Assembly: GCA_015499995.1 (NCBI GenBank) | Contig: JADNRV010000053.1 | Span: 248,001-312,000, forward strand | Direction: 5' to 3' | Length of the DNA stretch: 64,000 nucleotides | DNA from: Flammula alnicola | Lineage: Eukaryota > Basidiomycota > Agaricomycetes > Agaricales > Strophariaceae | Notes under the pieces: generated by a model | Told to the model about the DNA's origin: nothing | Seen by the model: only the letters and a program-made list of their open reading frames with translations | Database searches by the model: none | Program-made: the position numbers and the translations under genes | In this document: piece after piece, positions 18,901 to 64,000 of the stretch | How the letters are laid out: each line of letters begins with the position of its first letter | How positions within the stretch are numbered: position 1 is the stretch's first letter

Positions 18901-21900
18901 GTCAGTGAGCTACTCACGTATGCACGTCCAATGCGGCAAGGACGTCATCCAACAGTATAATCTTAGCCTGCGAGTAAATTGCTCGAGCAAGAGTGACTCG
19001 AGCCTGTCGAGTTACACAAGTTCAAATAGCGTGGGTCATCGACAAAAGGAATATTACCTTTTGCCCTCCACTACGACATAAATTAGAACACGGCTTCAAC
19101 ATATCCGGTATAGAACACGAACCTCAGAGTAATTCCCTTTTCACCAACCTCAGTATTGTCTCCAGCTTCAAATAACTCAAGATCTTTGTCTAGGGCACAT
19201 TGGCGGAGCACTGTAGAAAGACAAAGTTGGGTGAGCAAAAATAGAATCTACTAGTTTGTTTACCTTTGCGGTAACGAACGTCGTCGTAGGGAGATCCAAA
19301 GAGGATGTTCGCACGGATTGTTTCATTTTGCACCCAAGACTCCTGAGCCGCATACGCCACACCACCATCCCTCGGAAGATTGAACCATGAGTCAGCTCCA
19401 GATCGGATGAAGTGCATCTCGCCTGCCAAACGTGATAAGTAGGGGCATAAGTATAAGTGGGAGACATATTGTCGAAGGGAAGAGGATACAGACCAAATAA
19501 CGCCATAAGCATCGACGTTTTGCCAGAGCCCCTATGAAAAGCTTTAGCGTTAGTTAATTGAGCAATAAATTTATTCCTCACGTAGGACCGATGATAAGGT
19601 TTATGCAATCAGGCTTGAAGAAGAGCTCATCATTCACCCGAAGTCTGAAAGACCGACGCGATGGAGTAAGGGAACCATCTCCAGCCCCAACCGACCACGA
19701 GAAAGAGGCATTTTTGAAACCAATCGCATTCTTGTCGAAACTGGGAGGATCAGGTATCGACACCTCAACTTCTGTATTTGTGAATGAATCCAATAGCTCC
19801 GTTTCCTTCAAAAAATCGTTAACACGGTCCAGGGAGACTTTGCCTGAGATGTGAAATATTAGGTCAGGCGGACATGAAAAGATTGAGGGACAGACCTTGT
19901 GTACTCGCAGTAATTTGCCGAGAAATTCTGAATAGCTCCAATCGGAGAATATCGAATACCGTCAGGCTGGAGAAGATTACAGAGGCTATAAGGTACAACC
20001 AAATACATTTGAATCTGTCCTCGGATAAGATTCAGTGAACGTACGAATTAATTCTTGCTTCATGATGACCGTGTAAGTGGCATAGGTGACCAGCATGCTG
20101 ACAGTGGGGATAATAGAACTTGAAAGAAAGTTTTGATTAAAGTCGCATATATGCATTGATGCAGAGTCCAACGCACTTAACGACCCCTGTAAGGGACTGC
20201 AGAACCTGATTCGCGATATGGGGTTGTCAATTTCCGACGGAATAAAGAGTCCGCAGGTACCAACCTTGAGCTTCCAGATGGACGAAAGTTCGGCATTTCG
20301 TTTGTCTTGAATTCTTTCAGACATTCTTCCTTCCCACCCGAATAGTTTGACCATTCGTAGCACATTGACGACTAGAGCGATCAACGACTTGTTAACAGTT
20401 TAATATATGCTCATATTCATGATGAGAATTCACCTTCCGTAACAGTTTGAATGCGTGCATCAGTCTAAAAATGTGTTACTTGAGGCATATACTTGGTTGA
20501 CTAACTGGCTTACATACCATTTCCATTCTCTTTCTTTGAACATCCTGGGTTAATTTGGCTGCGTAACCTGGTGCCGGCATAAGGGCGATCATGCATGCGA
20601 GCCCAACAAATGCACTTGTGAAATGCATGAGACACTGCATGATTTAGTGGGTAGGGTTGCCTAAAACACTTACCTCCATCCCAGCATTTGGTACAAGAAG
20701 GCGGTACACAGACAAATTTGAAGCGGAGCGGACAAAACTACAGAAGAAAGTTCAATATAAAATTAAAGGTCGAACGACATCTTTACTTGCTAAGAAGGAG
20801 GAAGTCTCTGGCACTGATGATATTGTCCAAGTCGGTAGTCACGAGATTGTTGATTTTCCCCACAAAATTGGCCTCGTTCTTGGTCTCCTTCTTGACTGGC
20901 GCCGCTGCTACTGTGGCAGGTGCAGGGTTTGGTGCAGGCGAGTCGTCTTTAGCCTTTCCTTTCGTCGAAGCCTTAGTCGTGGTCGATTGAGAGTCACTGG
21001 ATGCTTCAGGAGAATTGTCCACATTGTCAGTGTCTTCGCTGGAGTTCTCGATGGCAGACGAAGTATCAGGGGTTCCGACCACGGTAGTGCCGTCCTGCCC
21101 TTCGTGATCAGTTTTCTCAGTTGGAGTCTCTGTTGCGAAACGGATACGGAGACTGTGCTCGAACACGAGCTCAGTGAGAAGGGCCTCTGTGTGTGCGATC
21201 ATCCTTGTCGCAACAAAGTTATAATACTGCACGAATGAACCATTGACTATAGGGCCCATGAACAGGCAAAGAATCCAGAACCATGGGCGGATGTTGTCAC
21301 CCACACCCCCGTTTTCCAAGTAGCTACAGGCATCAATAAAATAAGCACTGCTGTCTCGGACTGAGAAATATAAACCCGTTAAAGAACTTACTTGAGAATA
21401 TGATAAATGGCAAGTGGAGACAAGAGTCCTATGACGACCTGCCCGACAATGCTCAAGGCCATCAACGAGTAGTCTTTGCCTGAGGGACGAGTATAACCAT
21501 CACATCAACAGAAAAACCCTTCACGCGACTTACGAAAAAGACGCATCAATCCAAAGAATAGATGGCGAGGCCTGGAGCGTTTGAATGGATCCAAGTGCTA
21601 ATTTATGTTAGAGCACAGAAAACGACAGAAAAAGGATGGCCGCTTACTGGAAATGCGCGTTTAATAAGGTGCTTCGAAGAATCCGTATCAGAGAGGGGCG
21701 GTAATTGATCAACTTCCAGATGCTCGACCCGATATCCCAGAAAGATGACAGGGTCTAGATAGCTGTACATTAGAAAAGAAAACAAGGAACATGTTTGTTC
21801 ATCATTGGGTACTGGCATAGGATCCTAAGGAGGGCAACGTTACTAAATCTACTAAACCATTAAATACACATACCTTTGGATCAACTGGAACATAGCGACG

Positions 21901-22679
21901 AGGAACGAAAAGAGGGATGCCCACTGCAGTTATGGACAAGATCGTTATCGTAATCCAAAGTAGATATCCTTGGGCTGCATCTTTCGGCACCTCCGTATAC
22001 GTGGCGACAGGCCAAATATCACGGTATATGTATACCATGAACGCACTGAGCAAGATGAGGACATTGTGCCTAGTTGCAAGCGTGGACCATTTGGTTATGG
22101 CCAACGATGTAATCGCCAAAATGGAAGAATATAACTTTGTCCAAAAATCGTATAAGCACGTAGGAAGCTCAAGGAAAGGAGGACGCAACGTACATATGTT
22201 AGGACCATAAGTGATTCATGGCATGTGAAGAATAGGCGCAGCGGACTCGCGCTGTTTTCGCGCCAATCGCGGCAACGGACTATAGTTGTCGACGAAAGAA
22301 CCAAAAGAGTCAGACATCCGGCAAGACGCGCCACCGCATACATGAATATTGTCCATCCACCGTGATCGTTTGCTCGAGCCTGTATTAACTGCAGAAACGT
22401 AACAGAGCGTGCGGGCGCATCTTCTTCATCGATGGGCGCAGTGTTCAGGCTCGATCCTTTCCGTAGATACCTGAAGCATGCAACCAATGCGTGGAGGGTT
22501 TGGACAGTAACGAGGACGACAGCAATAGCGAATGGAATAAATAGAGAATCGTTTACTATTCTGGATTGTAGAGTTAGATTTCTTACTTGGTATACATTAG
22601 AAACGTAAACATACAAGTTGTCCCATGGCTCTGAAGGCGCCATTGTTAACAACCTAGATCCCCAGCTGGTAACATCCAT
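15907..22679 (-). CDS. ABC-2: full-length ABCC (MRP-type) transporter, one apparent frameshift
   Basis: The ATG at 22679 (MDVTSWGSRLL) begins a TMD0 of about five hydrophobic segments, then a linker with PRRYVPVDPK and PVPNDEQTCSL, and TMD1. Inside TMD1 is an insert of about 110 residues rich in Ser/Thr/Asp/Lys (20830-21170). NBD1 is at about 19830-18750: Walker A GPT/GSGKTS across an intron, SWFNLPRDGGVAYAAQESW, a 13-nt micro-exon (19058-19070) for the SGGQK core, and Walker B LLDDVLAALD with Asp in place of the catalytic Glu, as usual in ABCC NBD1. After NBD1 the frame breaks by one missing base near 18574 (GAG then TACC). TMD2 and NBD2 follow: LSVGEKQILALARAM, a 15-nt ATSAI micro-exon at 16365-16379, and [12 protein letters not shown]. 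The stop TGA is at 15909-15907. About 6.8 kb with more than 20 introns. It is the left-arm partner of ABC-5. Substrate unknown. Confidence 0.88.
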
Positions 22680-23600
22680 GGCAGTCGCGAAACCTGGACG
22701 AGTGGATTGAGAGTCAGGTCGGCTTCTGTGCTTGTACTTGGCGTGTAATTCAAGAAGCTCCGGCGGTGAGAAGATAAGAAGGACAGATGGTCTGAAAAAA
22801 ACTTGTCAGCGAGGGCACATATAAATATATGGATATGTGATTATCAGTCACCATGGGATTTTTCAAGATGCAGCAGGCCTATGCTATTTTTGATTTGACA
22901 GACCCACATGGCTCTCGGGACGTCGTCTCCAACAGGACTATAGAAAACTAAGTTTTCCTTGAGAGGAACTCAGGACGATACAGTTTAGGCAGAAAGGGCG
23001 AAGCATGATGGATTGATGGATCCTTGAAGAGCATGCGCTGGTGCTTGTCACGGTTGCTCAAGGTGACCGAGGTGAACTTGAAGAGTTGATTAACGTTGGT
23101 TGGTACTTTGCCCGATTAATTGCACCGGCCCTAAGGGAATCACGTGGGGATATCTTGACCAATGGGGAAGCGTATCTCGTGTACAGCCTAAGCCTTGTAA
23201 AAGCGGATTCCGACAAAAGATGTGTTCATGGGTAGTGGTCGGCTCGGCCCTAAATTAATCGAGCATTTTTCGTTGGTTTGTCGTTGGTGGCCAGAAATTT
23301 CGAACGGTATACATATCTTCTTGGAACAAGTACTGTGGTCCGCCGCGGGGGTCACAATTTGGATGAACTGAGAGTTTTCCCGCCTCCCCGGATGGAATAA
23401 CGATACTACTGGTAGGTACTGTAAATTAGAATACTCAGTAGAAAACCAGTTTGTGCGCGCAAGCAAATTGAAGTAGCGCCACATACCTGCCAAATACAGT
23501 ATAAGTATCCGTGCCGAATCAACTTTTGGCTCGCCTTGCCTTGTAACTCCTCTGTGAAATTACATACACAGGTTACATATAACTTTCAGTCACTTTCCTA
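22680..23600. promoter_or_regulatory. Divergent promoter region of ABC-2 and coiled-coil copy A
   Basis: 920 bp between two outward-facing genes. An AT-rich TATA-like tract (ATAAATATAT, 22821-22830) lies about 145 bp upstream of the ABC-2 ATG and is conserved in the other arm (about 62397-62410). The other arm copy differs by a few small indels, for example near 23050-23130. No specific regulator site can be named. Confidence 0.5.
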
Positions 23601-24538
23601 ATGGCTAACCGGCGTCCCCAGCAAGAAAAGCAGCGGAAAGTCGAGATCGCAGAGGAGGATCTCGATTTTCCCATGTCACAGCAATCGAATGAAAGCGATG
23701 AGCAACAACGAGCGTGCGTTTCCGTCCATATATCCCTTCCCATGATATGCGTAGGTGCGTGTACCACCACGAAACTGCTGACATAAATACGCCAATAGAC
23801 TCAGAGAATCACTCGAAAAATGTTTGGCTGGTGCGTGCATCTCAGAACTTTCATCAACGTTCGAAAACCACCTACCTTTCCGATTTTGCAGCCGAAGTAG
23901 AAAAGAAAAAGGCACATAAGGAGAAGAAGTTCCTAGAAGTCTCAGAGAAGCATCTCAACCTCGATGTATATGCGCTTCTGCCCACATTTTACTGAACGGC
24001 TTTCACTAACTAATGGCTTCAATTTGTCCAGCTTGAAACGTCAGCGAGAGAGGTTCGCGATGGAATGAAAGCTATGTAAGCGCATGCATGATGTGGATAT
24101 ATGCGCTTAATCTGAGCAGAACTCCCCTTAGCGACGAGGTCTACACTGTTTTTTTGACGGAGTATGCAAGGTGCGAGGACAGAATTCGTAAAAAATGGGT
24201 GCAGCTTCAGGAAGCCCAAGATAATCTCGTGGTGCGTTTTCTCTGGAGCCAGGAGGCCTTACCAAAGGCACCGAACAAGATAGTCCTAATAATTGTCAAT
24301 TATCTTCAGAAATTAGCGAAAGAACGACAACGAATGGACGAGGAAGCTATCAAATCCTCGGCTTCGATGCATGTCGGCGGGCTATCCAAGACAAGGGCTG
24401 CGTGCACAGGTGTGATCGTCAAAGCTTTCAATCGGAATGAGGAGCTGAATCTTCTTCCTTGCTCTGCCTTTGACAGCGTTCCAGGCGATAATTGATGAAT
24501 TGGCTCCGCCAGAGCAAGATATAGCGAACGACGAGTGA
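23601..24538 (+). CDS. Coiled-coil protein of unknown function, copy A
   Basis: Six exons (23601-23713, 23799-23830, 23892-23965, 24032-24075, 24120-24409, 24477-24538) join to an intact frame of 204 codons. All introns have GT/AG ends. The product is small, soluble and highly charged: a Gln/Glu/Lys-rich start (MANRRPQQEKQRKVEIAEED), a Lys-rich helix (EVEKKKAHKEKKFLEVSEKH), a central helix with EDRIRKKWVQLQEAQDNL, and a helix with YLQKLAKERQRMDEEAIK. This pattern suggests an extended coiled coil, possibly a subunit of a larger complex. I recognise no named family. The 21-base stretch after codon NLV could be mistaken for an intron but reads in frame. Copy C in the other arm has the same length, and the copy at 35303 is broken. 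Its 3' end converges on NOP56 A. Confidence 0.7.
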
Positions 24539-25083
24539 ATCAGCACCCGACCCTGTAGATTACGATGGAACGCGCTAGGAAGTTCGAAGCAAATTTTCTT
24601 TCACCATAATTTAAAGCGATTCAGGCAGCCGTTACGTGTCGAAAACTGCTATGTCAAGCACGGTCAAATTCTGCACAATCAGTTCCCCAATGCAGGCGCA
24701 CGTGGAAGAGCGTACTCGTTATGGGAGAGTCGTAGACTGCATTATGATCGTAGCACCTCCACCGTGGCACCATGGTCCCCCAAAGGAACACAGAAACGTG
24801 GTTAATTTGATACTTCACCCCCTTTGCAGCAGGTAACTTATAGGGTATGCGGACCCTAGAATCCGTTCCGTCCTCAAGCGCAGTGCATGGGATGTCAGCA
24901 TGGGAAAGAAATCGATGCCGGTGTCCATATTCCGAGGCCCTCGGGCCAGAGCCTTCTCCGAACGCGTCCAACGTTTCCCACGAGCAACATGTCGATAGAG
25001 TGCCTGGGTCATAAAAAAGGGATGAAATAAAGTGACAAGATACAGATAGGAAACAAGAAGGAAAAGAGAACGAGAGAAATATA
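24539..25083. other. Convergent 3' region between coiled-coil copy A and NOP56 copy A
   Basis: 545 bp containing the 3' flanks of two converging genes. The left half, beginning ATGGAACGCGC at about 24565, is also present after the other two coiled-coil copies, where it can be read as a short frame (ARKFEANFLSGHNFKRY in the middle copy). In copy A that frame is broken, so it looks like conserved 3' UTR of recent duplicates rather than a gene. Confidence 0.45.
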
Positions 25084-26916
25084 TTACTCTTTGGTCATTT
25101 TCTTTTCCTTCTTTTCCTTTTTTTCCTTTTTCTCCTTCTTCGACGATTTACCCTAAATTTCAAGGCGAACATCAACATCGACATCTTCATGCAAGAAAGT
25201 TGAATGCTCACGTCACCATCAACCGCCACCTCAGCCTTTGCCTTCTCTTTCTTGGCCTTCTTCAAAGCCTTCTTCTCCTCCTTCGAGAGCTTGACCTTCT
25301 TGGATGAGTGCTCGTCCTCGTCTTCATCTACATCCATGGCGTCGCTCTTCCTCTTCTTTTTCTTCTCCTTCCTTGGCTCGGCTTCCAAGGTGGTCAAAGC
25401 AGGCTGGTCCACATCCATGCCAGCGTCGTCGTCGTCGTCGTCCTCCTCCTCCTCATCGAGGGCAAGCTCATCTAGAACTTTCCGAATGGCGTCGGCGTTC
25501 TTTGATGGAGGTGTACCGGTCTCAAAGAAGTTCAGTCGCTCTTCTACTTGAGCGCACAGAGCCTCTCCGAACTTGGCGGTGGGGTTTTCTATGAGATGAT
25601 TAGCACGACGATATGTCCAGCGAAACAATCCAGCTTTACCAGAGTAACAATCGATACGGGATGCTATTGAGCATTTGTTAGCCAAGAAGCGTGAAATGTG
25701 ACCCTTATGTTTGGGGCCTGCACGGCCGATGAAGGTTGAATGGTAAAGAAGACCGTACTAAAGATCAGAACATCAGATGGGTGTTCTATAGCTGGCAATA
25801 CAAAAACACACCTTCGGCGTGTTACCCTTTGTCTTCAAGGCTCGGAAAAGAGCTTTCTCCGCACCAAGAATCTGCACTGTGCTGGCGGGGTACTTGCTTA
25901 GATTCGTCAAGCTACCAGCGTGGCTGATCAATCGTGCACCCACGCGCTCTCCGAGAAGAGCTGTCAGACTGGGCGCTACCGAGTTCATCTTCTCGGAGAG
26001 ATACGATACTAGCGACTTGCGGTAGTCGGCAATGGAAACTACCCGCGTGGCGAAGGAGGAGATGTTCAACATGTCAATTTCAGAGAGACCGGAGCCCATG
26101 GAGCCGCGGGCGGCGTCGAGGATGTTTTGCGCGAGCGTCGAGTCGTCGTCAAGGATTGCAGCGAGGTCTGGGAGTTTTTCTTCATCAAGAGTGTCTTTGT
26201 CACCAATGAATTTGGCGACCTGCGCGTACTTATGGTTGTCGGGCACCAGACGGACGAGCTCTGGGAAATGGTAGCCATACCATTCCCTGATCCGCATCGA
26301 AAACAGGTTGACATCCCTGTCGAGCTGGTCAAGAAGGGCAATAGCCTGTATGATCATGTTATCCACACGGTTGACGTTGAACTTTAGTTTTGCACGAGAG
26401 TAGGAGTGCCCGAGACCGAGCTGGGCCTTCCTCAGGTCATCAGTTTGGAGACCCTTGAGGAGCTTGGAGGCGTGAAGACGAATACCGCGAATGAGGTCTT
26501 GAGATGTTTCTGACACATCAATTTGGAAGCCCAGGGCATCCTTTATGCTCTTTCCAATGAGAGGGTCGGAAACAGCGAGCTTGACTGGTGACTTCTTCGA
26601 TGGCTTCGAGAGGTTCAGTTCAAGGAGATTTTGGAGGAAGTCGTTCAGGACATATACCTAGAATATTGTAAATAGCTCAGTAACCTTGTAGCAACAGAAA
26701 ATTTTCATTTCGAACCTCCTGAAATATCGGTGGCATTCTCCAAAGCCTGAGCAGCACTCTTGAAAGGCGCAAAGCTCATCAGCGAGACCATTTTCCCGAA
26801 CTTGGCCAGGTCCTTGAATGATTCCTGGACTGCCTGGGATTTAGACCCTCTGTGAGTTTTGCCTCGAATATGGCATATCCTGAGGCCGACTCAAAGAGTA
26901 CGTGTGTTACCGACAT
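25084..26916 (-). pseudogene. NOP56: NOP56 copy A (box C/D snoRNP core protein), 5' end broken
   Basis: Nucleolar protein 56, a core subunit of box C/D snoRNPs that guide rRNA 2'-O-methylation. The long second exon reads through and shows the Nop-family core ([39 protein letters not shown], then a NOP-domain stretch with [20 protein letters not shown]). The C-terminus carries the acidic run and the Lys-rich KKE tail of fungal NOP56. The first exon begins at 26916 ([10 protein letters not shown]), but relative to copy B it lacks 7 bases at about 26846-26850, after AKLTE. It also has 4 extra bases at the start of exon 2 (about 26660), and its first donor is GTTCGA instead of GTGCGA. The two changes shift the frame between them, so no complete N-terminal domain can be made. 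Intact copy B lies at 58277. The downstream exons are otherwise almost unchanged at protein level, so the damage is recent. Confidence 0.85.
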
Positions 26917-27049
26917 CTTCGATGGGCCTTGTCGTTGTTCAGGACGATGAGGAGAAACTTTTTTCTCGAAGACCGCTCCAGCCAGGAATGCTGTGACAAA
27001 GTGACGGTAGCGTGACTGAGTGATCCCTTCCACCTCACTCCCGAGTCGG

Positions 27050-27215
27050 GTCCCGTCATCTTCCATCTGCATTCTTATTGGCCTGTGCCCTCGAATTCCA
27101 AAGCTTACGCGTCGACGCGCGTATACTGAAGAAAACGCCAGCCATAAATGCTCCTGGGAAGGCGTGTCATGTCAGTCACCGGGAAATTGCTCCGGATGCG
27201 CGTCTGGAGACAATC
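27050..27215 (+). repeat. Dispersed element, copy 1 (NOP56 A / ABC-3 promoter)
   Basis: A segment of about 165 bp related to 34840-35020. Shared blocks are CGGGTCCCGTC / CGGTCCCGGG, TTCCATCT, CCCTCGAATTCC, the near-palindrome ACGCGTCGACGCGC (27107-27120), GTATACTGAAGAA, and CATGTCAGTCAC.GGGAAATTG. It is in the same orientation as the copy downstream of ABC-3, so ABC-3 lies between direct repeats. The boundaries are approximate because the flanks are diverged. Confidence 0.6.
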
Positions 27216-27497
27216 AAATGGGAGTCACGGTGATTATATGGAGGTATGTGTATGCCAGCGTACCGAATTCCGTACTCTGTCTTTACTATCTCATTGCCTT
27301 GGAGCATTTCTCCCTGCCTGATGCAGAACGGTACACAACGATCTGACTACCACAATCGTTCCATTTCTGCAGTAGAACTTGATGCTAGTACCTGCGATGT
27401 CTACGGACTGACCTGGACATCGAATTGGATGGGCAGTGGTGGGAAGATAACAGCCAATGAGCGCACAATGGACACGAGGCCTCATACATATCCGAGC

Positions 27498-27506
27498 TTT
27501 AAATAG
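27498..27506 (+). promoter_or_regulatory. TATA-like box of ABC-3
   Basis: TTTAAATAG lies 128 bp upstream of the ABC-3 ATG and is conserved at the matching place in front of ABC-4 (57688-57696, minus strand). Position and conservation fit a core promoter. There is no experimental support in the sequence. Confidence 0.4.
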
Positions 27507-27633
27507 TTGGGAGTCAAGTATCCCAGCTGCCAGTGATACTATCTTCGTCTTCCTCCCTTATTCTCACCTTGTAATCGACAAGCTTTGCGACGACCAAGTC
27601 CTTTTCATCTGTTTGCGCGTTCGGCTACTATCA

Positions 27634-30600
27634 ATGGAATCCTCCAGCTGGGAGTGGCAACGGGTACTGGTAGACCCTCAAACGTCTTCTGTGGTGAAGA
27701 TGAAAGGTTGGGCTGGTCCAGGAGAACTGTATGTTATCATTACCGCGCGCAACTACAAGGTCTTACAGCTTTTGAATATAGGCTCCTACACCAATCTCTT
27801 GCCATTCCTTTTGCGATTGCCCTATGCTTGATCAGTTTTCAGACTATCAATGGATTGGTGGCATGCCTTAAAAATCTCCGGAGAGGCTCAGCAAGTTCTG
27901 CGCCTTCGAATGCCGAATCTGGAGATGCGCATTCCAACTGGATTCAGACACAAATCCGAGACCTTGGTGGATTACACATCTTCCTATATGCTGTGGCTCG
28001 TCTTGTCGGATGCTTGGCTCTCCTGGCTCTGTCTTCGAAAACTCTAGCTGCATGTGACAGTTGGGGTAGGCACGATGCCTTTTCGTCTTTTTGGAGTCTT
28101 TTCTCCGAATTTCCTGAGTTGTTCATGACACTCACTTTCGTAAGTCAAGCGTCTGTATCTTCGTCAATAATTCTTGACAGTATAACCATCTCTAGGCCTA
28201 TTCTTCGATTCTGGCAATTACTTCTCTAACTGTCAAGAAATGGAGCGTGCTCGCGACACGATATAACATCGTTCTCCTCCTTGTTATACTTGGAACATAC
28301 ACATGCAGAGATATATGGCCTTTGGCGACATATACCCAGACTCCGAAAGACGCGTCCCAAGGCAATGTGCTTTGGTTCAAGATCGCGATTCTCGTAGTGA
28401 CAGCGGCCCTCATACCGCTATTCGTTCCTCGCCGCTACATACCGGTGGATCCGAAGGTGTGTATAGTTAGTGTCAACATTTTTCTTAAAAAGGCTTACCT
28501 GTTTCAGGATCCTATGCCAGTCACCAACGATGAGCAGACGTGTTCACTTTTCGCCCTCGTCATGTACACCTATCTAGACCCAATCATTTTTCTCGGGTAC
28601 CGAGTTCCACATCTGAAATTCGACCAGTTGCCTCCGCTCTCCGACACCGATTACTCCAAGAACCTGACGAGCAAAGCATTCCCCGTAGGTTGAATTCGTT
28701 GAATTCGAACTGGAAGGTATTGAATATACTATTAGCACCTGGATCCTTTTGGGGGCGCAAAACGGCGCCATTTGTTCTTCGGCTTGATGCGCGTGTTCCG
28801 TGAGTAGTGTTGCATGAATGATTCTTAGTCGACCGTAGTGATCGTGACTTTTACAGGCAAGGAATATACAAACCTGGCTCTCCTCATTATTTGTCAGTCA
28901 ACTTCCGTGTTTGCGTTTCCTATCGCCATCTACCATATTTTAAGGTGAGGGACATTGCTCATTCATGAAGCTTATAAATCAGGAACGTTTGTATGTCGCA
29001 GTTATCTGGAGACTGGTGGAAACGGTGCTGACCCCGACATTCGCCCTTGGTTCTGGATTCTTTGCATGTTTCTCGGGCCGGCCTTTCGTGCTGTTGCTTT
29101 CCAGTGGTATATTTTCATCGCAACGAGAACTCTCGTTCGCACGGAAGCCCTGCTCACTCAGCTCGTGTTCGAGCATAGCCTGCGTATTCGTCTTAAGGCT
29201 GAGAGTTCCAGCGAGAAAGGTGATCGCATACATGATCGAGACACTTCGACTGTGGTTGGGACGCCTGATACGGTGTCCATTTCCGAGAGCTCGGCTGCAG
29301 GATCGAATGCAGATGAAGAGGAGAGCGTGACGGCTACAGCAGCATCTCGGGAATCTTCCGGTGATGCCCAGTCGTCGCAGGCTCCGACTCTGAAAGGGAA
29401 AGCCAAGGATACTGGGTCCAAGTCTCCGAGTGCCAAACCGGAGAAGAAAGGGAGCGCTGAAAGCGACTCCAATCTCATCGGGAAAATCAACAATCTTGTC
29501 ACGACCGACTTGACGAACATTGTTGAAGCTCGAGATTTCATCGTGCTCCGTGAGTAATACATCTTACAAACGATGTGCGTGCCCTGATGAAAGTGCGAAT
29601 GTCTTCAGTTATATTTGTCCCGCTTCATATTGCTCTCTGCACTACCTTCCTGTACCAAGTACTCGGATGGAGGTTCGTTTTTTTCATATCTTTCACTTTG
29701 AAATTCCTATCTAAAGGTTGTTTCTTCGAAGCGCGTTCGTGGGGCTGGCGTCGATGATCTTGCTTTTCCCGCTGCCAGGTTACATCGCTAAACTGGTTCA
29801 GGATGTTCAGAGAACCAGAATGAAGATGGTGCGCCTTAGCCTCGATTGTCGACTGAGCTCTTCTTTACCGTCGGCTCCAACTTTTTAGACTGATGCACGA
29901 GTGCAAGATGTAACTGAAGGTAAGCTCTCCATTGATTCCACATAGGGATCGCAAACACGAATTTATGTTTTCCAGCCGTGAACGTCCTCAGAATGATCAA
30001 GTTATTCGGATGGGAGGAAAGAATGGCTGGACGGATCAAAGACAAGCGGGACGATGAACTTGCGTGGCTTTGGAAATTGAAGGTCCGTTCCATATCTAGA
30101 TACTCCATGGTCTGTTGACTATATTCCTGCATTAGACGCTAGAGGCTCTGAATGGAATTCTCAAGTAGGTGCCAATACTGTACCATCAAGCCACACCTGT
30201 AACAGTATTTCTTATTCAGCTTCTTTATTCCGACTATAAGCATGGTCATCTCATATGCAACATACACTGTAATCATGAAGGAAGAGCTTACCCGTAAGTT
30301 TGGAAATGTCTTTATTGACTCAAGCCATTGAAACCTCGTCATCCTAGCTTCCAAAATATTTTCTAGTATATCAGTGTTTTCTATGCTCAGAGTGCAATTG
30401 CACAGAATATCTTACCAAGTCAGCGCCAGCATCCAGGGTTCGATATTTCTGATACTCGTGGTATGACGTACCCAAAAGCTGACATCGTTTCCAGGGAAAG
30501 TCTCGCTGGACCGTGTGCATGACTTCCTGCAAAATACGGAACTTTTGGATTCGTATACTGAGATGCCGACGACGCTAACTGACATTTCGTTGCCATCGAA

Positions 30601-44902: not shown

Positions 44903-44928
44903 GAATGAATGAATGAATGAATGAATGA
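44903..44928. repeat. GAAT tetranucleotide microsatellite
   Basis: Six to seven perfect tandem copies of GAAT just downstream of the DUF6699-like gene stop. It is a simple sequence repeat and likely polymorphic. Confidence 0.9.
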
Positions 44929-44958
44929 AGGACTAAAACAGCCAAACCAACAGCCAAA

Positions 44959-50139: not shown

Positions 50140-50229
50140 AGCCATTGAAAACCAAAGCAGAGATTCTCAGATTATATATTTCAACGATTAGGCTTCTGAC
50201 AGAATGTGGAGGTAAAACTTGAACAAGGA

Positions 50230-50410
50230 ATCAAGAGGGTGACTGACGCGCACCCGTCGCCTGTTGATACGATTTGGAGCATTCGTTGCTCGCGTTTTTT
50301 CAGCATACGCGTGTCGATGCGTGAGCTTCGGGAATTCGAGGGAGTAGTATGCAAGTAGTGTGCATAATATAACTTAGATGGAACAGGACAAACACTGGTT
50401 GAAGGAACAA
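50230..50410 (-). repeat. Dispersed element, copy 3 (downstream of ABC-4)
   Basis: Mirror of copy 2. The palindrome is decayed to ACGCGTGTCGATGCGT at 50307-50322, and GGAATTCGAGGG and the AGATGGAACAGGACA block are retained. Read on the minus strand it has the same order as copy 2. Confidence 0.55.
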
Positions 50411-50779
50411 GCCATTGGCAATCCCCTCGGCTTTTCCCGGGACCGTTTGTGACAGCAGCCTGACTTGGCATGACTCACGAGCGCTACTGGGCGCTTGGTA
50501 GCGCCTAAAACACTACGCCTATGACCGCGACAGCGCCTGAGTCAGATCGCCCCACTCCGAGTGCCAAATAGATGTCTCTCTCTTGTTGCATACTCACAGG
50601 TCATTTTACTAGTATTCTGATAAAACAACGCATGTTTGACCTCGAGTTGTATGTTTTTTCATCAACGTTTGCGTTTCCGACATACTTAACACCATGTCCA
50701 TTGAGCTGCCGGCTTCACTGTACTTTTACAGCAGAATCTACTCATGAGATTTCCAGAAGTACGTACAGGTGTCAAGGTC

Positions 50780-53700: not shown

Positions 53701-56700
53701 GAAACACTTGTCGACGATCCATGCAGATCTTTAAACAATATCACTATAGTATATAATGAATCAATGATTGAACAACGCACGTATGTACATCCAGAGCGGC
53801 AAGAACATCGTCTAACAAGATGATTTTCGCCTGTGAATAGATTGCTCGTGCAAGAGTCACTCGTGCCTATTTACTGCTAAGAAGATGGCGTCATTCGAAA
53901 AGATTTGGTGCCTGCCTTTTGTCCTCCGCTGTCGTAAAGTGATATGTTAGACCTCGCGGGTGACTGCGCATTCCAAAGAATTACAAACCTGAGCGTAAGG
54001 CCCTTTTCACCAACTTCGGTCTGATCTCCAGCCTCGAAGAGCTCGAGATCCTTCTCCAACGCACACTGGCGAATAACTGTTGCAAGATGTAGGTATAAAT
54101 GAGATTTCAACCAACAAAGAACATGTTTCTATTACCTTTCCGGTAGCGCACTGCGTCGTAGGGAGATCCGAACAAGATATTTTTGCGGATGGTTTCATTT
54201 TGAACCCAGGATTCCTGGGCTGCGTACGCCACACCTCGTTCTCGAGGGAGGTTGAACCAGGAGTCAGCAGTGGAGCGGATGAAGTGCATTTCGCCTATCA
54301 TAATCAATATGAGTCCAGGACATATAACGAAATACAAAAATGATCAGACCGAGTAATGCCATTAACATAGACGTCTTTCCGGATCCACTATACAGAAGAT
54401 TAGTGAGTGAAAACATGCTTCAGAAGGAATTTACTCACGTAGGGCCGACTATGAGATTTATGCAATTGGACTTAAAGAGGAGCTCTCCGTCTATGCGGAG
54501 CCTAAAATTGCGACTCATTGGCGTAAGTGAACCATCCTGAGATTCGAGCGACCAGGAAAACGTGGCGTTGTTGAAACCGATGACTTCTTTGTTCGATGGC
54601 AACGAGATGTCAGTTAGCGTCGTCGGCATCTCAGTATACGAATCCAAAAGTTCTGTATTTTGCAGGAAGTCGTGCACACGGTCCAGCGAGACTTTCCCTG
54701 GAAACGATGTCAGCTTTTGGGTATATCATACCAAGTATCAGAAATATCAAACCTTGGATGATCATGCTGGTTTGGTAAGATATTCTGTGCAATTGCACTC
54801 TGAGCATAGAAAACACTGATATGCTAGAAAATATTTTGGAAGCTAGGATGACGAGGTTTCAATGGCTTGAGTCAATAAAGACATTTCCAAACTTACGGGA
54901 AAGCTCTTCCTTCATGATTACAGTGTATGTTGCATATGAGATGACCATGCTTATAGTCGGAATAAAGAAGCTGAATAAGAAATACCGTTACAGGTGTGAC
55001 TTGATGTTAAAGTATTGGCACCTACTTGAGAATTCCATTCAGAGCCTCTAGCGTCTAATGCAGGAATAAAATCAACAGACAATGAAGTATTTAGATATGG
55101 AACGGACCTTCAATTTCCAAAGCCACGCAAGTTCATCGTCCCGCTTGTCTTTGATCCGCCCAGCCATTCTTCCCTCCCATCCGAATAACTTGATCATTCT
55201 GAGGACGTTCACGGCTGGAAAACATAAATTCGTGTCTGCGATCCCTACGTGGAATCAATGGCGAGCTTACCTTCAGTTACATCTTGCACTCGTGCATCAG
55301 TCTAAAAAGTTGGAGTCGAAGATAAAGAAGAGCTCAGTCGACAATCGAGACTCAGGCGCACCATCTTTATTCTGGTTCTCTGAACATCTTGAACCAGTTT
55401 AGCGATGTAACCTGGCAGCGGGAAAAGCAAGATCATCGACGCCAGCCCCACGAACGCACTTCGAAGATACAACCTTTAGATACGAGTTTCGAAGCGAAAG
55501 ATGAGAGAAAAACCCACCTCCATCCGAGCACTTGGTAAAGGAAGGTAGTGCAGAGAGCAATATGAAGTGGGACAAATATAACTGAAGATATTCGCACTGT
55601 CGTCAGGGCACGCACGTCATTTGGAATGGGTATTACTCACGGAGCAGGAGGAAATCTCGAGCTTCAACAATATTTGACCAGTCGGTCGTGACGAGATTGT
55701 TGATTTTCCCGATGAGATTGGAGTCGCTTTCAGCGCTCCCTTTCTTCTCCGGTTTGGCACTCGGGGACTTGGACTCTGTATCCTTGGCTTTTCCTTTCAG
55801 AGTCGAAAACTGAGATGATTGGGCATCACCAGAAGCTTCCCGAGATGCTGCTGCGGCCGTCACGCTTTCCTCTTCATCTGCATTCGATCCTGCAGCCGAG
55901 CTCTCGGAAATGGACACTGTATCAGGCGTCCCAACCATAGTCGAAGTATCTCGATCATGTATGCGATCACCTTTCTCGCTGGAACTCTCAGCCTTAAGAC
56001 GAATACGCAGGCTATGCTCGAACACGAGCTGAGTGAGCAGGGCTTCCGTGCGAACGAGAGTTCTCGTTAAGATGAAAATGTACCACTGGAGAGCAACAGC
56101 ATTGACGGCCGGCCCGAGGAACATGCAAAGAATCCAGAACCAAGGGCGAATGTCGCTCTGAGTACCGTTTCCACCAGTCTCCAGATAACTGCGACATACA
56201 AACGTTCCTTATTTATAAGCTTCATGAATGAGCAATGTCCCTCACCTTAAAATGTGGTAGATGGCGATAGGAAACGCAAACAGGCAAGTTGACCGACAAA
56301 TAATGAGGAGAGCCAGGTTTGTAAATTCTTTGCCTGTAAAAATGCTCGATCACTACGGTAGACTAAGAATCGCTTATGCAACACTACTCACGGAACACGC
56401 GCATCAAGCCGAAGAACAAATGGCGCCGTTTTGCGCCCCTAAAAGGATCAAGGTGCTAACAATATATTCAATACCTTCCAGTTCAAATAGCAACGGATGC
56501 AACCTACGGGGAATGCCTTGCTCGTTAGGTTCTTGGAGTAATCGGTGTCGGAGAGCGGAGGCAACTGGTCGAATTTCAGATGTGGAACTCGGTACCCGAG
56601 AAAAATGATTGGGTCTAGATAGGTGTACATGATGAGGGCGAAAATTGAACACGTCTGCTCATCGTTGGTGACTGGCATAGGATCCTGAAACAGGTAAGCC

Positions 56701-57565
56701 TTTTGAAGAAAAATGTTGACACTAACTATACACACTACACACCTTCGGATCCACCGGTATGTAGCGGCGAGGAACGAATAGCGGTATGAGGGCCGCTGTC
56801 ACTACGAGAATCGCGATCTTGAACCAGAGTACATTGCCTTGGGAGGCGTCTTTCGGAGTCTGGGTATATGTTGCCAAAGGCCATATATCTCTGCATGTGT
56901 ATGTTCCAAGTATGACAAGGAGGAGAACGATGTTATATCGTGTCGCGATCACGCTCCATTTCTTGACAGTTAGAGAAGTAATTGCCAGAATCGAAGAATA
57001 GGCCTAGAGATAGTTGTACTGTCAAGAATTATTGACGAAGATACAGACGCTTGACTTACGAAAGTGAGTGTCATGAACAACTCAGGACACTCGGAGAAAA
57101 GACGCCAAAAAGACGAAAAGGCATCGTGTTTACCCCAACTATCACATGCAACTAGAGTTTTTGAAGACAGAGCCAGGAGAGCCAAGCATCCGACGAGACG
57201 AGCCACAGCATATAGGAAGATGTGTAATCCACCAAGATTTTGGATTCGTGTCTGAATCCAGTCGTGATGCGCATCCTCAGGTTGTGCATTCGAAGGCGCT
57301 GAACTTGCTGAGCCTCTCCAGAGATTTTTAAGGCATGCCACCAATCCATCGATAATCTGAAGACAGATCAAGCATAGTGCAATCGCAAAAGGGAGGGCAA
57401 GAGATTGGTGTAGGAGCCTGTATGCAAAAGCTGTAAGGCCTTGTAGTTGCTCGCGGTAATGATAACGTACGGTTCTCCTGGACCAGCCCAACCTTTCATC
57501 TTCACCACAGAAGACGTTTGACGGTCAACCAGTACCCGTTGCCACTCCCGGCTAGAGTGTTCCAT
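50780..57565 (-). pseudogene. ABC-4: ABCC transporter copy with many frameshifts
   Basis: Inverted partner of ABC-3, from the ATG at 57565 (MEHSSREWQRVL) to the position equivalent to the ABC-3 stop at 50782-50780. TMD0, TMD1 with its Ser-rich insert (55690-56010), NBD1 (including SWFNLPRERGVAYAAQESW and the 13-nt GC-donor micro-exon at 53916-53928), TMD2 and NBD2 are all present. Relative to ABC-3 it has lost single bases at about 50853, 50903, 51149, 51500, 52419 and 52441, and has further small losses at about 52480 and 52600. The end of NBD2 and part of TMD2 therefore cannot be read in one frame. On the other hand, it keeps the C that ABC-3 lacks in TMD2 (WIGIRIDYLGAIF). Eight lesions make pseudogene status likely if the bases are right. 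Confidence 0.8.
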
Positions 57566-58276
57566 TGATAGTAGCCAAACGCGCAAACAGGCGAGAAGGA
57601 CTTGGTCGTCGCAAAGCCTGTCGATTACAAGATGAGAACAAGGGATGAAGGCGAGAAGACGAAGATACTGGGACACTTGATTCTGAACTATTTAAAGCTC
57701 GGATATGTATGAGGCCGCGTGTCCATTGTGCGCTCATTGACTGTCATCTTCCCATCACTGCCCATCCAATTCGATGTCCAGGTCAGTCCGTAGACATCGC
57801 AGGTACTAGCATCAAGTTCCACGGTAGAACTGGAACGATATCGTTGTGTACCGTTGTGTTCTACTGCATGAGGCAGGGAGGAATGCTCCAAGACAATGAG
57901 ATAGCAAAGACAGAGTATAAAATTCGGTAGTATCTCTGATCTAAAACGGTCAGCTGGCGTACGTACACGCATCTGGAGCAATTTCCTGGTGACTCTGACA
58001 TGACACGACTTCCGAGGAGCATTTATTTGGCATTTTCTTCAGTATACGCGCGTTGACGCGTAAGCTTTGAAAATTCGAGAGCACAGGCCAATAAGGATGT
58101 AGATGGAAGAGGATGGGACCCGACTTATGCGCCGATGGGAGCAAACCCGTCACCCTAAAAGGTCCAAGCGATCACTCGGTCACACTAGTGTCACCTTGTC
58201 ACAGCATTCCTGGAGCGGTCTTCGAAAAAAAAAGTTTCCTCCTCATCGTCCTGAACAACGACAAGGCCCATCAAAG
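57566..58276. promoter_or_regulatory. Divergent promoter region of ABC-4 and NOP56 copy B
   Basis: 711 bp, mirror of 26917-27633, with a TATA-like CTATTTAAA at 57688-57696 (minus strand) and dispersed element copy 4 at about 57965-58110, whose palindrome is ACGCGCGTTGACGCGT (about 58046-58061). Because NOP56 B is the only intact NOP56 visible, this is probably the active promoter of an essential gene. Confidence 0.55.
57965..58110 (-). repeat. Dispersed element, copy 4 (ABC-4 / NOP56 B promoter)
   Basis: Mirror of copy 1: GAGCAATTTCC.GGTGACTCTGACATG, then CTTCAGTATACGCGCGTTGACGCG, then AAATTCGAGAGCACAGGCCAATAAG. It stands on the opposite strand from copy 1, as expected from the inverted duplication. 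Confidence 0.55.
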
Positions 58277-60113
58277 ATGTCGGTCACACACGTACTCTTT
58301 GAGTCGGCCTCAGGATATGCCATATTCGAGGCAAAACTCACAGAGGACATTGGGTCCAAATCCCAGGCGGTCCAGGAATCGTTCAAGGACCTGGCCAAGT
58401 TCGGGAAAATGGTCTCGCTGATGAGCTTTGCGCCTTTCAAGAGTGCTGCTCAGGCTTTGGAGAATGCCAACGATATTTCAGAAGGTGCGAGAAAGAAAAA
58501 AATCTGTTGCTACAAGGTTACTGAGCTATTTCCAATATTCTAGGTATCCTGAACGACTTCCTCCAAAATCTCCTTGAACTGAACCTCTCGAAGACATCGA
58601 AGAAGTCGCCAGTCAAGCTCGCTGTTTCCGACCCTCTCATTGGAAAGAGCATAAAGGATGTCCTGGGATTCCAAATTGATGTGTCAGAGACATCTCAAGA
58701 CCTCATTCGCGGTATTCGTCTTCACGCCTCCAAGCTCCTCAAGGGTCTCCAAACTGATGACCTGAGGAAGGCCCAGCTCGGTCTCGGACACTCCTACTCC
58801 CGTGCAAAACTAAAGTTCAACGTCAACCGTGTCGATAACATGATCATACAGGCTATTGCCCTTCTTGACCAGCTCGACAAGGACGTCAACCTGTTTTCGA
58901 TGCGGATCAGGGAATGGTATGGCTATCATTTCCCAGAGCTCGTCCGTCTCGTGCCCGACAACCATAAGTACGCGCAGGTCGCCAAATTCATTGGTGACAA
59001 AGATACTCTTGATGAAGAAAAACTGCCAGACCTCGCTGCAATCCTTGACGACGACTCGACGCTCGCGCAAAACATCCTCGACGCCGCCCGCGGCTCCATG
59101 GGCTCCGGTCTCTCTGAAATTGACATGTTGAACATCTCCTCCTTCGCCACGCGGGTAGTTTCCATTGCCGACTACCGCAAGTCGCTAGTATCGTATCTCT
59201 CCGAGAAGATGAACTCGGTAGCGCCCAGTCTGACAGCTCTTCTCGGAGAGCGCGTGGGTGCACGATTGATCAGCCACGCTGGTAGCTTGACAAATCTAAG
59301 CAAGTACCCCGCCAGCACAGTGCAGATTCTCGGTGCGGAGAAAGCTCTTTTCCGAGCCTTGAAGACAAAGGGTAACACGCCGAAGGTGTGTTTTTGTATT
59401 GCGAGCTACAGAAAACCCATCTGATGTTCTGATCTTTAGTACGGTCTTCTTTACCATTCAACCTTCATCGGCCGTGCAGGCCCCAAACATAAGGGTCGCA
59501 TTTCGCGCTTCTTGGCTAACAAATGCTCAATCGCATCCCGTATCGATTGTTACTCTGGTAAAGCTGGATTATTTCGCTAGACATACCGTCGTGCTAATCA
59601 ACTCATAGAAAACCCTACCGCCAAGTTCGGAGAGGCTCTGCGCGCTCAAGTAGAAGAGCGACTGAACTTCTTTGAGACCGGTGCACCTCCATCAAAGAAC
59701 GCTGACGCCATTCGCAAAGTTCTAGATGAGCTTGCCCTCGATGAGGAGGAGGACGACGACGACGACGACGACGCTGGCATGGATGTGGATCAGCCTGCTT
59801 TCACCACCTTGGAAGCCGAGCCAAGGAAGGAGAAGAAAAAGAAGAGGAAGAGCGACGCCATGGATGTAGATGAAGACGAGGACGAGCACTCATCCAAGAA
59901 GGTCAAGCTCTCGAAGGAGGAGAAGAAGGCTTTGAAGAAGGCCAAGAAAGAGAAGGCAAAGGCTGACGTGGCGGTTGATGGTGACGTGAGCATTCAACTT
60001 TCTCGCATGAAGATGTCGATGTTGATCTTCACCTTGAAATTTAGGGTAAATCGTCGAAGAAGGAGAAAAAGGATAAAAAAGAAAAGAAGGAAAAGAAAAA
60101 GACCAAAGAGTAA
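58277..60113 (+). CDS. NOP56: NOP56 copy B, intact box C/D snoRNP core protein
   Basis: Five exons (58277-58484, 58544-59385, 59440-59557, 59609-59985, 60045-60113) join to 537 codons with no break. All introns are 44-59 bp with GT/AG ends. The protein starts [20 protein letters not shown] (NOP5NT domain). The Nop core follows with [20 protein letters not shown] and [18 protein letters not shown], then the snoRNA-binding Nop domain with [36 protein letters not shown] and [14 protein letters not shown]. Last come a Glu/Asp run, a predicted bipartite-type basic stretch ([10 protein letters not shown]) and a Lys/Glu tail ending KKTKE. NOP56 works with fibrillarin, NOP58 and SNU13 in nucleolar rRNA methylation and is essential in yeast (established knowledge). 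Length fits the fungal family. It is divergent with ABC-4 and convergent with coiled-coil copy C. Confidence 0.96.
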
Positions 60114-60692
60114 TATATTTCTCTCGTTCTCTTTTCCTTCTTGTTTCCTATCTGTATCTTGTCACTTTATTCCATCCCTTTTTTATAACCCAGGTACACT
60201 CTATGTATTGTGATCGACATGTTGTTAGTGGGAAAGGGCTCTGGAAGACGTTGGAACTTGGACGCGTTCAAAGAAGGCTCTGGCCCGAGGATCTCGGAAT
60301 ACGGACACCAGCATCGATTTCCTTCCCATGCTGACATCCCATGCACTGCGCATGAGGACGGAACGGATTCTAGGGTGCGCAGACCCTATAAGTTACCTGC
60401 TGCAAACGGGGTGGAGCATCAAATTGACCACGTTTCTGTGTTCCTTTGGGGGACCATGGTGGCACGGTGGAGGTGCTGCAATCATAATGCAGTCTACAAC
60501 TCTCCCATAACGAGTACGCTCTTCCACGTGCGCTTGCATTGGGGAACTGATTGTGAAGAATTTGACCTTGCTTGACATAGGAGTTTTCGACACGTAACAG
60601 CTGCCTGTACCGCTTGAAATTATGGCCTGAAAGAAAATTTGCTTCGACCTTCCTAGTGCGTTCCATCGCGATCCCCAGGGCCGAGTGCTGGT
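60114..60692. other. Convergent 3' region between NOP56 copy B and coiled-coil copy C
   Basis: 579 bp, mirror of 24539-25083. It contains the 3' flanks of two converging genes and the same short frame (RKVEANFLSGHNFKRY, minus strand) seen after the other coiled-coil copies. Confidence 0.45.
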
Positions 60693-61633
60693 TCACTCCT
60701 CGTTCGCTATATCTTGCTCTGGCGGAGCCAGTCGATCAATTAACGCCTGGAACGCTGTCAAAGGCAGAGCCAGGAAGAAGAAGCTTCAGCTCCTCATTCC
60801 CATTGAAAGCTTTGACGATCACACCTGTGCACGCAGCCCTTGTCTTGGATAGCCCGCTGACATGCATCTCGGCCGAGGATTTGATAGCTTCCTCGTCCAT
60901 TCGTTGTCGTTCTTTCGCTAATTTCTGAAGATAATTGACAATTATTAGGACTATCTTGTTCGGTGCCTTTGGTAAGGCCTCCTGGCTCCAGAGAAAACGC
61001 ACCACGAGATTATCTTGGGCTTCCTGAAGCTGCACCCATTTTTTACGAATTCTGTCCTCGCACCTTGCATACTCCGTCAAAAAAACAGTGTAGACCTCGT
61101 CGCTAAGGGGAGTTCTGCTCAGATTAAGCGCATATATCCACATCATGCATGCGCTTACATAGCTTTCATTCCATCGCGAACCTCTCTCGCTGACGTTTCA
61201 AGCTGGACAAATTGAAGCCATTAGTTAGTGAAAGCCGTTCAGTAAAATGTGGGCAGAAGCGCATATACATCGAGGTTGAGATGCTTCTCTGAGACTTCTA
61301 GGAACTTCTTCTCCTTATGTGCCTTTTTCTTTTCTACTTCGGCTGCAAAATCGGACAGGTAGGTGGTTTTCGAACGTTGATGAAAGTTCTGAGATGCACG
61401 CACCAGCCAAACATTTTTCGAGTGATTCTCTGAGTCTATTGGCGTATTTATGTCAGCAGTTTCGTGGTGGTACACGCACCTACGCATATCATGGGAAGGG
61501 ATATATGGACGGAAACGCACGCTCGTTGTTGCTCATCGCTTTCATTCGATTGCTGTGACATGGGAAAATCGAGATCCTCCTCTGCGATCTCGACTTTCCG
61601 CTGCTTTTCTTGCTGGGGACGCCGGTTAGCCAT
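60693..61633 (-). CDS. Coiled-coil protein of unknown function, copy C
   Basis: Mirror of copy A with the same six-exon structure, from the ATG at 61633 to the TGA at 60695-60693, and an intact frame of 204 codons. The first five exons are nearly identical to copy A up to EEAIKSSA. From there the copies separate: AEMHVSG versus ASMHVGG, a last intron longer by several bases, and an ending FQALIDRLAPPEQDIANEE versus FQAIIDELAPPEQDIANDE. This change of divergence inside the gene marks a conversion or duplication boundary. Function unknown, as for copy A. Confidence 0.7.
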
Positions 61634-62550
61634 TAGGAAAGTGACTGAAAGTTATATGTAACCTGTGTATGTAATTTCACAGAGGAGTTACAAGGCAAGG
61701 CGAGCCAAACGTTGATTCGGCACGGATACTTATACTGTATTTGGCAGGTATGTATGTGGCGCTACTTCAATTTGCTTGCGCGCACAAACTGGTTTTCTAC
61801 TGAGTATTCTAATTTACAGTACCTACCAGTAGTATCGTTATTCCATCCGGGGAGGCGGGAAAACTCTCAGTTCATCCAAATTGTGACCCCCCGCGGCGGA
61901 CCACAGTACTTGTTCCAAGAAGATATGTATACCGTTCGAAATATCTGGCTACCAACGACAAACCAACGAAAAATGCTCGATTAATTTAGGGCCGAGCCGA
62001 CCACTACAAGCACCCCATGAACACATCTTCTGTCGGAATCCGCTTTTACAAGGCTGTACACGCTTCCCCATTGGTCAAGATATCCCCACGTGATTCCCTT
62101 AGGGCCGGTGCAACCAAAGTACCAACCAACGTTAATCAATAATTTAATCAACTCTTCAAGTTCACCTCGGTCACCTTGAGCAACAAGCACCAGCGCATGC
62201 TCTTCAAGGATCCATCAATCCATCATGCTTCGCCCTTTCTGCCTAAACTGTATCGTCCTGAGTTCCTCTCAAGGAAAACTTAGTTTTCTATAGTCCTGTT
62301 GGAGACGACTTCCCGAGAGCCATGTGGGTCTGTCAAATCAAAAATAGCATAGGCCTGCTGCATCTTGAAAATCCCATGGTGACTGATAATCACATATCCA
62401 TATATTTATATGTGCCCTCGCTGACAAGTTTTTTTCAGACCATCTGTCCTTCTTATCTTCTCACCGCCGGAGCTTCTTGATTTACACGCCAAGTACAAGC
62501 ACAGAAGCCGACCTGACTCTCAATCCACTCGTCCAGGTTTCGCGACTGCC
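61634..62550. promoter_or_regulatory. Divergent promoter region of coiled-coil copy C and ABC-5
   Basis: 917 bp, mirror of 22680-23600, with only small differences (a GTAT insertion near 61747-61755, small indels near 62100-62180). The TATA-like tract TATATTTATATG at about 62401-62412 lies about 140 bp before the ABC-5 ATG. Confidence 0.5.
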
Positions 62551-64000
62551 ATGGATGTTACCAGCTGGGGATCTAGGTTGTTAACAATGGCGCCTTCAGA
62601 GCCATGGGACAACTTGTATGTTTCCGTTTCTAATGTATACCAAGTAAGGAATCTAACTCTACAATCCAGAATAGTAAACGATTCTCTATTTATTCCATTC
62701 GCTATTGCTGTCGTCCTCGTTACTGTCCAAACCCTCCACGCATTGGTTGCATGCTTCAGGTATCTACGGAAAGGATCGAGCCTGAACACTGCGCCCATCG
62801 ATGAAGAAGATGCGCCCGCACGCTCTGTTACGTTTCTGCAGTTAATACAGGCTCGAGCAAACGATCACGGTGGATGGACAATATTCATGTATGCGGTGGC
62901 GCGTCTTGCCGGATGTCTGACTCTTTTGGTTCTTTCGTCGACAACTATAGTCCGTTGCCGTGATTGGCGCGAAAACAGCGCGAGTCCGCTGCGCCTATTC
63001 TTCACATGCCATGAATCACTTATGGTCCTAACATATGTACGTTGCGTCCTCCTTTCCTTGAGCTTCCTACGTGCTTATACGATTTTTGGACAAAGTTATA
63101 TTCTTCCATTTTGGCGATTACATCGTTGGCCATAACGAAATGGTCCACGCTTGCAACTAGGCACAATGTCCTCATCTTGCTCAGTGCGTTCATGGTATAC
63201 ATATACCGTGATATTTGGCCTGTCGCCACGTATACGGAGGTGCCGAAAGATGCAGCCCAAGGATATCTACTTTGGATTACGATAACGATCTTGTCCATAA
63301 CTGCAGTGGGCATCCCTCTTTTCGTTCCTCGTCGCTATGTTCCAGTTGATCCAAAGGTATGTGTATTTAATGGTTTAGTAGATTTAGTAACGTTGCCCTC
63401 CTTAGGATCCTATGCCAGTACCCAATGATGAACAAACATGTTCCTTGTTTTCTTTTCTAATGTACAGCTATCTAGACCCTGTCATCTTTCTGGGATATCG
63501 GGTCGAGCATCTGGAAGTTGATCAATTACCGCCCCTCTCTGATACGGATTCTTCGAAGCACCTTATTAAACGCGCATTTCCAGTAAGCGGCCATCCTTTT
63601 TCTGTCGTTTTCTGTGCTCTAACATAAATTAGCACTTGGATCCATTCAAACGCTCCAGGCCTCGCCATCTATTCTTTGGATTGATGCGTCTTTTTCGTAA
63701 GTCGCGTGAAGGGTTTTTCTGTTGATGTGATGGTTATACTCGTCCCTCAGGCAAAGACTACTCGTTGATGGCCTTGAGCATTGTCGGGCAGGTCGTCATA
63801 GGACTCTTGTCTCCACTTGCCATTTATCATATTCTCAAGTAAGTTCTTTAACGGGTTTATATTTCTCAGTCCGAGACAGCAGTGCTTAATTTATTGATGC
63901 CTGTAGCTACTTGGAAAACGGGGGTGTGGGTGACAACATCCGCCCATGGTTCTGGATTCTTTGCCTGTTCATGGGCCCTATAGTCAATGGTTCATTCGTG
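62551..64000 (+). CDS. ABC-5: N-terminal part of an ABCC transporter, cut by window end
   Basis: Near-identical inverted partner of ABC-2. The first 194 translated positions (including a likely short intron at about 62617-62670) differ at a single residue, Ser instead of Tyr in NLYVSVSN. Visible are TMD0, the linker with PRRYVPVDPK and PVPNDEQTCSLF, the exons with HLDPFKRSRPRHLFFGLMRLF and the start of TMD1 (NGGVGDNIRPWFWILCLF). The frame is intact as far as it can be followed. The NBDs lie beyond the window, so whether the gene is functional cannot be judged. Confidence 0.9.

Follow-up and report, generated by a model that had tools for sequence, protein, structure and literature searches.

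Mammalian sex chromosomes carry large palindromes, e.g. P6 of the human Y. Their inverted arms of many kilobases bear genes, contain homogenised tracts of several kilobases and enclose a spacer that can potentially invert. Rare inversions at a human palindrome are named in the title of PMC3723533. Head-to-head copies of a chromosome segment also arise by fold-back priming or breakage (excerpts of PMC3907307 and PMC10622511), and contigs that mix two nuclear haplotypes have been described from dikaryon assemblies in which both are kept (excerpt of PMC8957140). The subject of this analysis is a large inverted repeat that carries ABC transporter and NOP56 genes in a 64,000-nucleotide stretch of the mushroom Flammula alnicola (the window, C479:248001-312000, where C479 is its contig in an assembly of 74.4 Mb and 861 contigs). 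The repeat is a real feature of the assembly and of a known kind, with two long inverted arms and a unique spacer, as in a palindrome. It is probably an old inverted segmental duplication within one nucleus that has been partly homogenised by gene conversion. Unlike the mammalian palindromes, its arms are 95.3% identical overall rather than >99% and are apparently homogenised in the outer half only; the locus is not known as a sex chromosome, and the continuity of the contig suggests that both arms lie on one molecule, that is, on one chromosome. Unlike fold-back or breakage duplications, the event appears old, a copy of a small gene (R) lies at one junction, and no fresh junction signature was recognised. 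A literature search, judged by titles and the starts of abstracts, found no study of this locus.

Self-BLAST of the window aligned 21,230-35,102 in inverted orientation to 64,000-50,139 over 14,013 columns at 93.6% identity, with 607 mismatches and 85 gap openings (E=0.0). Positions are those of the window throughout; the contig continues 7,292 bases beyond it to 71,292, and with these bases added the arms, 13,937-35,102 (left, A) and 71,292-50,139 (right, B), aligned over 21,322 columns at 95.3% identity with 113 gap openings. An earlier note on this DNA had claimed an inverted duplication of at least 13.8 kb that ran on past the window. The duplication was borne out and is longer, at 21.3 kb; the arm does run on, bringing in the rest of ABC-2 and, of the ABC-1 block, a 949-base edge (13,937-14,885). 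The inner junctions, which the note had placed at about 35,100 and 50,140, were found at 35,102 and 50,139, and paired coordinates, which it had given as summing to 85,218-85,230, came close to this at three points (85,229, 85,230 and 85,241). Given that homology persists to the final base of the contig, the arm length is a lower bound, at least 21.2 kb each around a 15-kb spacer. Gene order in the left arm is ABC-1 (edge), ABC-2 (the full gene), R, NOP56 and ABC-3. A third copy of R adjoins the left inner junction and is absent from the right one (self-BLAST).

Divergence between the arms was unevenly distributed. The outer part (13.9-24.3 kb) showed 85 differences in 10,319 sites (0.82%) and the inner part 600 in 10,658 (5.63%), corresponding by mismatches to identities of 99.2 and 94.4%, so that >99% was not reached over the whole arm. 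No differences were present among 1,498 sites at 14.0-15.5 kb and only 19 among 4,772 at 19.5-24.3 kb; the outer differences were concentrated at 15.5-17.5 and 18.5-19.5 kb, mostly in the 3' portion of ABC-2, and the sequence between the ABC-1 and ABC-2 blocks (~14.9-15.5 kb) had none. Coding constraint alone would not produce this pattern. A simple assembler error, in which one arm was placed twice or a read folded back, is scarcely credible: the contig does end in a stretch almost identical to the other arm, but the inner divergence of 5.6% and the arm-specific indels, some common to other contigs and some not, speak against it. A doubled arm or fold-back read was accordingly rejected on the diverged arms, the different broken genes and the spacer, of which the assembly search (21 of 22 candidates scored) found no mirror copy, the last of which also means that a hairpin read or adapter fold-back offers no explanation.

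Two other contigs, C37 and C220, carry ABC-2, R, ABC-1, R and NOP56, and from their sequences are best read as two alleles of a second locus (locus 2) that differ by an inversion of ~66.7 kb. The two have a common flank (C220:43,312-50,000 is 96% identical to C37:71,374-78,090), and the R gene of C37 is split, with one end at 57,779, the other at 124,487 and ~5 bp of overlap between them. Reversing C37:57779-124486, a span examined on either side of 66,000-95,001, restored the gene order of C220. Once rejoined, the R halves gave two separate matches to C220 (78% over 474 columns and 89% over 950 columns), the R of C220 holding ~1.9 kb of extra sequence. The matching flank and the split R gene favour this reading over one in which C37 and C220 together form a single haplotype repeating the inverted layout. 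Divergence between C37 and C220 ranged from 1.8 to 8.2%, depending on the stretch.

Comparison of all four copies revealed different relationships in neighbouring genes. Over ABC-2 (15.76-23.49 kb), 374 sites paired A and B against C37 and C220, with 17 sites (12 + 5) for the other groupings. Over R (23.39-24.30 kb), A and B were 0.22% apart and each was 9.4-10.0% from locus 2. Near 24.3 kb there was a sharp boundary between this A-B-like sequence and NOP56 (24.76-27.02 kb), in which all six pairs of the four copies were 2.64-3.73% apart. Relative to locus 2, A and B are therefore sisters in ABC-2 but not in NOP56. Informative sites at 24.25-27.25 kb numbered 18 for A with C220 and B with C37, 11 for A with C37 and 10 for A with B; 14 of the 18 lay at 26.5-27.25 kb, the NOP56 5' region, where the other groupings had none. 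A tract at 16.0-17.0 kb was 0.60% from C220 in B and 3.60% from C220 in A. Elsewhere, B and C220 differed by 10.07% (19.5-22.0 kb) and, over the block, by 7.08%. So close a tract amid divergence of that order indicates exchange between loci, and the four-way site pattern as a whole indicates that sequence was exchanged both between arms and between loci. The simplest account, suggested by these alignments, is gene conversion in both cases; crossing-over with drift may instead lie behind the exchanged tracts.

In each arm a different gene is broken. The left-arm NOP56 has its frame disrupted by a 7-bp deletion early in the gene, and more indels lie near the first intron; all of these are common to A and C220 and absent from B and C37. 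The right-arm NOP56 reads through as a complete protein, the best relatives listed being NOP56 proteins of Agaricales, e.g. Crepidotus. For ABC-3, the exon stretches were picked from the open frames of A, which makes that copy open by construction, and comparison with a further copy of the ABC-3 block on C224 was the fairer test of decay. Gaps were polarised against C224 in the last third of the gene (the 3' part, 32.8-34.7 kb). Eight gap events there were unique to B, with A and C224 agreeing; five of these were single-base, four of them inside exon stretches (33,706; 34,058; 34,313; 34,363). The five A-only events included none in the compared exon stretches. Leftover PacBio indel errors may be among the gaps of B: of its single-base gaps, 17 of the 19 inner-half ones and 6 of the 14 outer-half ones lay outside runs of >=3. 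Between A and B, 79 non-synonymous and 72 synonymous codon differences were counted in 1,257 compared ABC-3 codons (20 of the 25 exon stretches, gapped ones left out), consistent with relaxed constraint. Decay is thus reciprocal, with NOP56 broken in A and ABC-3, barring such errors, in B, which leaves the locus with one complete NOP56 and, apparently, one complete ABC-3. A palindrome maintained for a selected function, whether ABC transporter dosage or a protected reservoir for NOP56 conversion, is highly improbable: although the outer arms are near-identical and NOP56 is complete in one arm only, genes are decaying in both arms and the ABC-3 codon differences point to relaxed constraint. The duplication probably has no dedicated function.

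The main rival, serious though rather less likely, is one that the earlier note had left aside: A and B would be alleles of one locus from two nuclei, joined head to head via a shared spacer, with no nucleus containing an inverted duplication; the weight given to this explanation, like that given to duplication within one nucleus, is a judgement and not a computed value. Such a join could stem from misassembly or from a spacer inverted between nuclei. It stays alive because many loci are present twice in the assembly. Among the 19 contigs hit with chaperonin, 10 fell clearly into five pairs, RPB2-like contigs formed two pairs (4 of 6), and a Nop-domain search yielded seven contigs with two pairs, both of the other Nop genes being paired. 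Presumably, judging from these copies, the assembly keeps many genes twice, once per nucleus.

Several observations weigh against duplication within one nucleus or in favour of a join. Many loci that were checked occur in duplicate, seemingly as alleles, and NOP56 is found at four sites (a pair on C479 and single copies on C37 and C220), a copy number that fits two alleles per locus. Divergence between A and B is inside the allelic range found here, as given by C37 and C220 and by C251 and C479 (97.3% identity). For NOP56, the widest of the six distances is that between A and B (3.73%), and hence no arm-to-arm homogenisation is seen in that gene. The contig ends within the right arm, and the far flank lies beyond the assembled sequence. 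The left flank (window 1-2726) had exactly two matches in the assembly, C479 and C251, and C251 ends at 2,726 without a prior long identical stretch; as the right end of C479 corresponds to 13,937, contig ends flank 2.7-13.9 kb on both sides, which a continuation of B into C251 would predict. We take Pholiota alnicola and Flammula alnicola to be one species. The excerpted genome paper (PMC8480192) names the species Pholiota alnicola AH 47727 and gives, for its genome set, Illumina and PacBio data assembled with Velvet, AllPathsLG or Falcon and then finisherSC and Quiver, from which the Flammula genome would be a Falcon assembly; a pipeline with Falcon, finisherSC and Quiver is compatible with a haplotype join, as are the chimeric contigs and phase switches known from dikaryon assemblies (PMC8957140, excerpt).

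The cases in that excerpt are phase switches and mis-joins, none of which joins inverted copies head to head around a single-copy spacer. Against a join at this locus, it would require the spacer to be collapsed or to exist in one nucleus only, and no repeat able to drive a misjoin was found at the 50,139 side, the spacer sequence beside that junction having no repeat elsewhere in the assembly in the spacer search. Divergence in the outer arms (0.00-0.40% over long tracts) is below that of the measured allelic pairs, and the NOP56 5' region pairs A with C220 and B with C37 by 14 sites to 0.

Under the favoured explanation, an inverted duplication within one nucleus, the inverted copy would have been made by an old repair or replication event. 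R and a ~105-bp repeat, D (27,084 and 34,873), which lie at or near module edges, may have aided later shuffling. Non-crossover gene conversion between the arms would then have kept the outer half nearly identical, while the inner arm would have drifted and its genes would have been lost one at a time. The copies form a modular family, with locus 1 on C479, locus 2 on C37 and C220 and an ABC-3 block on C224, and module edges are frequently at R or near D.

The locus shows how a multigene inverted duplication might age in a mushroom, its outer arms homogenised, its inner arms diverging and a different gene decaying on either side. A further lesson is that, where assemblies keep both nuclei, inverted duplications need checking against haplotype joins. 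NOP56, a snoRNP protein, is presumably essential. A doubtful extension is that NOP56 segregates in broken and complete forms at both loci (C479 and C37/C220) via recurrent conversion; if the broken copies A and C220 could meet in one nucleus, some spores would be without NOP56. If true, this would be a reciprocal-silencing incompatibility inside a single mushroom, with some spores lacking a presumably essential protein. With intact and broken NOP56 present at both loci, the question whether losing a duplicate kills spores can be put directly to the test.

The earlier note had further proposed that the spacer may exist in both orientations. Among the assembled haplotypes this was unsupported: a search of the assembly with the spacer (21 of 22 candidates were scored; the copy in the window, absent from the list, is presumably the remaining one) found no second copy apart from a 1.15-kb transposon. 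An inversion found nearby was that of ~66.7 kb between C37 and C220; its breakpoint, the sole one comparable, lies inside the upstream part of R, and the inverted-repeat arms were not used. By analogy with known palindromes, a flip of the spacer between the arms would be possible in principle. For the transposon-like element in the spacer, the listed matches included seven more near-full-length copies, 97-100% identical, and C378 holds two copies in opposite orientations.

Table 1. Features of the inverted repeat and its surroundings (window coordinates)
Feature	Position	Strand	Basis
Left arm, A	13937..35102	+	BLAST, 95.3% to 71292-50139; identity profile
Right arm, B, in-window part	50139..64000	-	BLAST; another 7,292 bases on to contig end 71,292
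Spacer	35103..50138	.	No second copy found in assembly except transposon and R copy at left end
ABC-1 block, outside arm save 949-base edge	7836..14885	-	BLAST; copies on C37 and C220
ABC-2, left-arm copy, ~1% from right-arm copy	15764..22800	-	BLAST; ends approximate
ABC-2, right-arm copy, extends beyond window	62430..64000	+	BLAST; start approximate
R, small putative coiled-coil protein gene, left-arm copy	23385..24753	+	Self-BLAST, database relatives
R, extra copy beside left inner junction	35117..36477	+	~89% to arm copies (self-BLAST)
R, right-arm copy	60476..61853	-	Self-BLAST
NOP56, left-arm copy, frame broken	25084..26916	-	Nop domain, four-way alignment
NOP56, right-arm copy, complete 537-aa frame	58277..60113	+	Translation, database relatives
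ABC-3, left-arm copy	27750..34414	+	Exon stretches from own open frames; ends approximate
ABC-3, right-arm copy, 3' exon stretches with four 1-bp deletions	50822..57486	-	Ends mapped from left copy, approximate
Short direct repeat D1, left edge of ABC-3 block	27084..27190	+	80% to 34873-34977 (self-BLAST)
Short direct repeat D2, right edge of ABC-3 block	34873..34977	+	Self-BLAST
Spacer ORF, weak RING-type	37130..38473	+	Pfam, 26.0 vs cut-off 27.3 bits
Spacer ORF, DUF6699	44769..45380	-	Pfam, 33.5 vs cut-off 24.1 bits
Transposon-like element, 1,146 bp, perfect 16-bp terminal inverted repeats	41872..43017	.	Assembly search

Searches of unspliced open reading frames (ORFs) against Pfam assigned a family to only 4 of 30, because the ABC genes are intron-rich. 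Their exons were revealed by pairing the ORFs of two paralogs, ABC-3 with ABC-2, which exon by exon proved to be related transporters over most of their length. Pfam confirmed ABC_tran on one ABC-3 exon, and ABC_membrane matched another below the cut-off (24.2 vs 28 bits). From P-loop and signature motif strings, the transporters are putatively of the ABCC type. Pfam likewise confirmed the Nop domain in the NOP56 gene. Of 122 database candidates for the R protein, two were relatives at E <= 0.001, from Flammula (BDZ97DRAFT_632636, the best) and Galerina; without a Pfam family, the R protein reads from its sequence as a putative coiled-coil protein. Searches of the window for tRNA genes (ARAGORN) and at Rfam gathering thresholds gave zero matches, and no two-unit TTAGGG telomere repeat was present in the examined pieces of C479, C37 and C220.

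Further copies and repeats were seen around these modules. The ABC-3 block on C224 (373727-380832, 92%) has a distinct Nop-domain gene ~22 kb away. On C37, a direct repeat pair (137663-148961; 482 bp, 98% identical, ~11 kb apart) resembles a long terminal repeat (LTR) retrotransposon and stands exactly where homology to the window stops (27,021). C220:30868-42443 holds a tandem pair of a 5.79-kb unit, 99.97% identical. Between ABC-1 and ABC-2, an ORF at 15368-15775 without a Pfam match resembles, by its motif, a TPR-repeat protein fragment.

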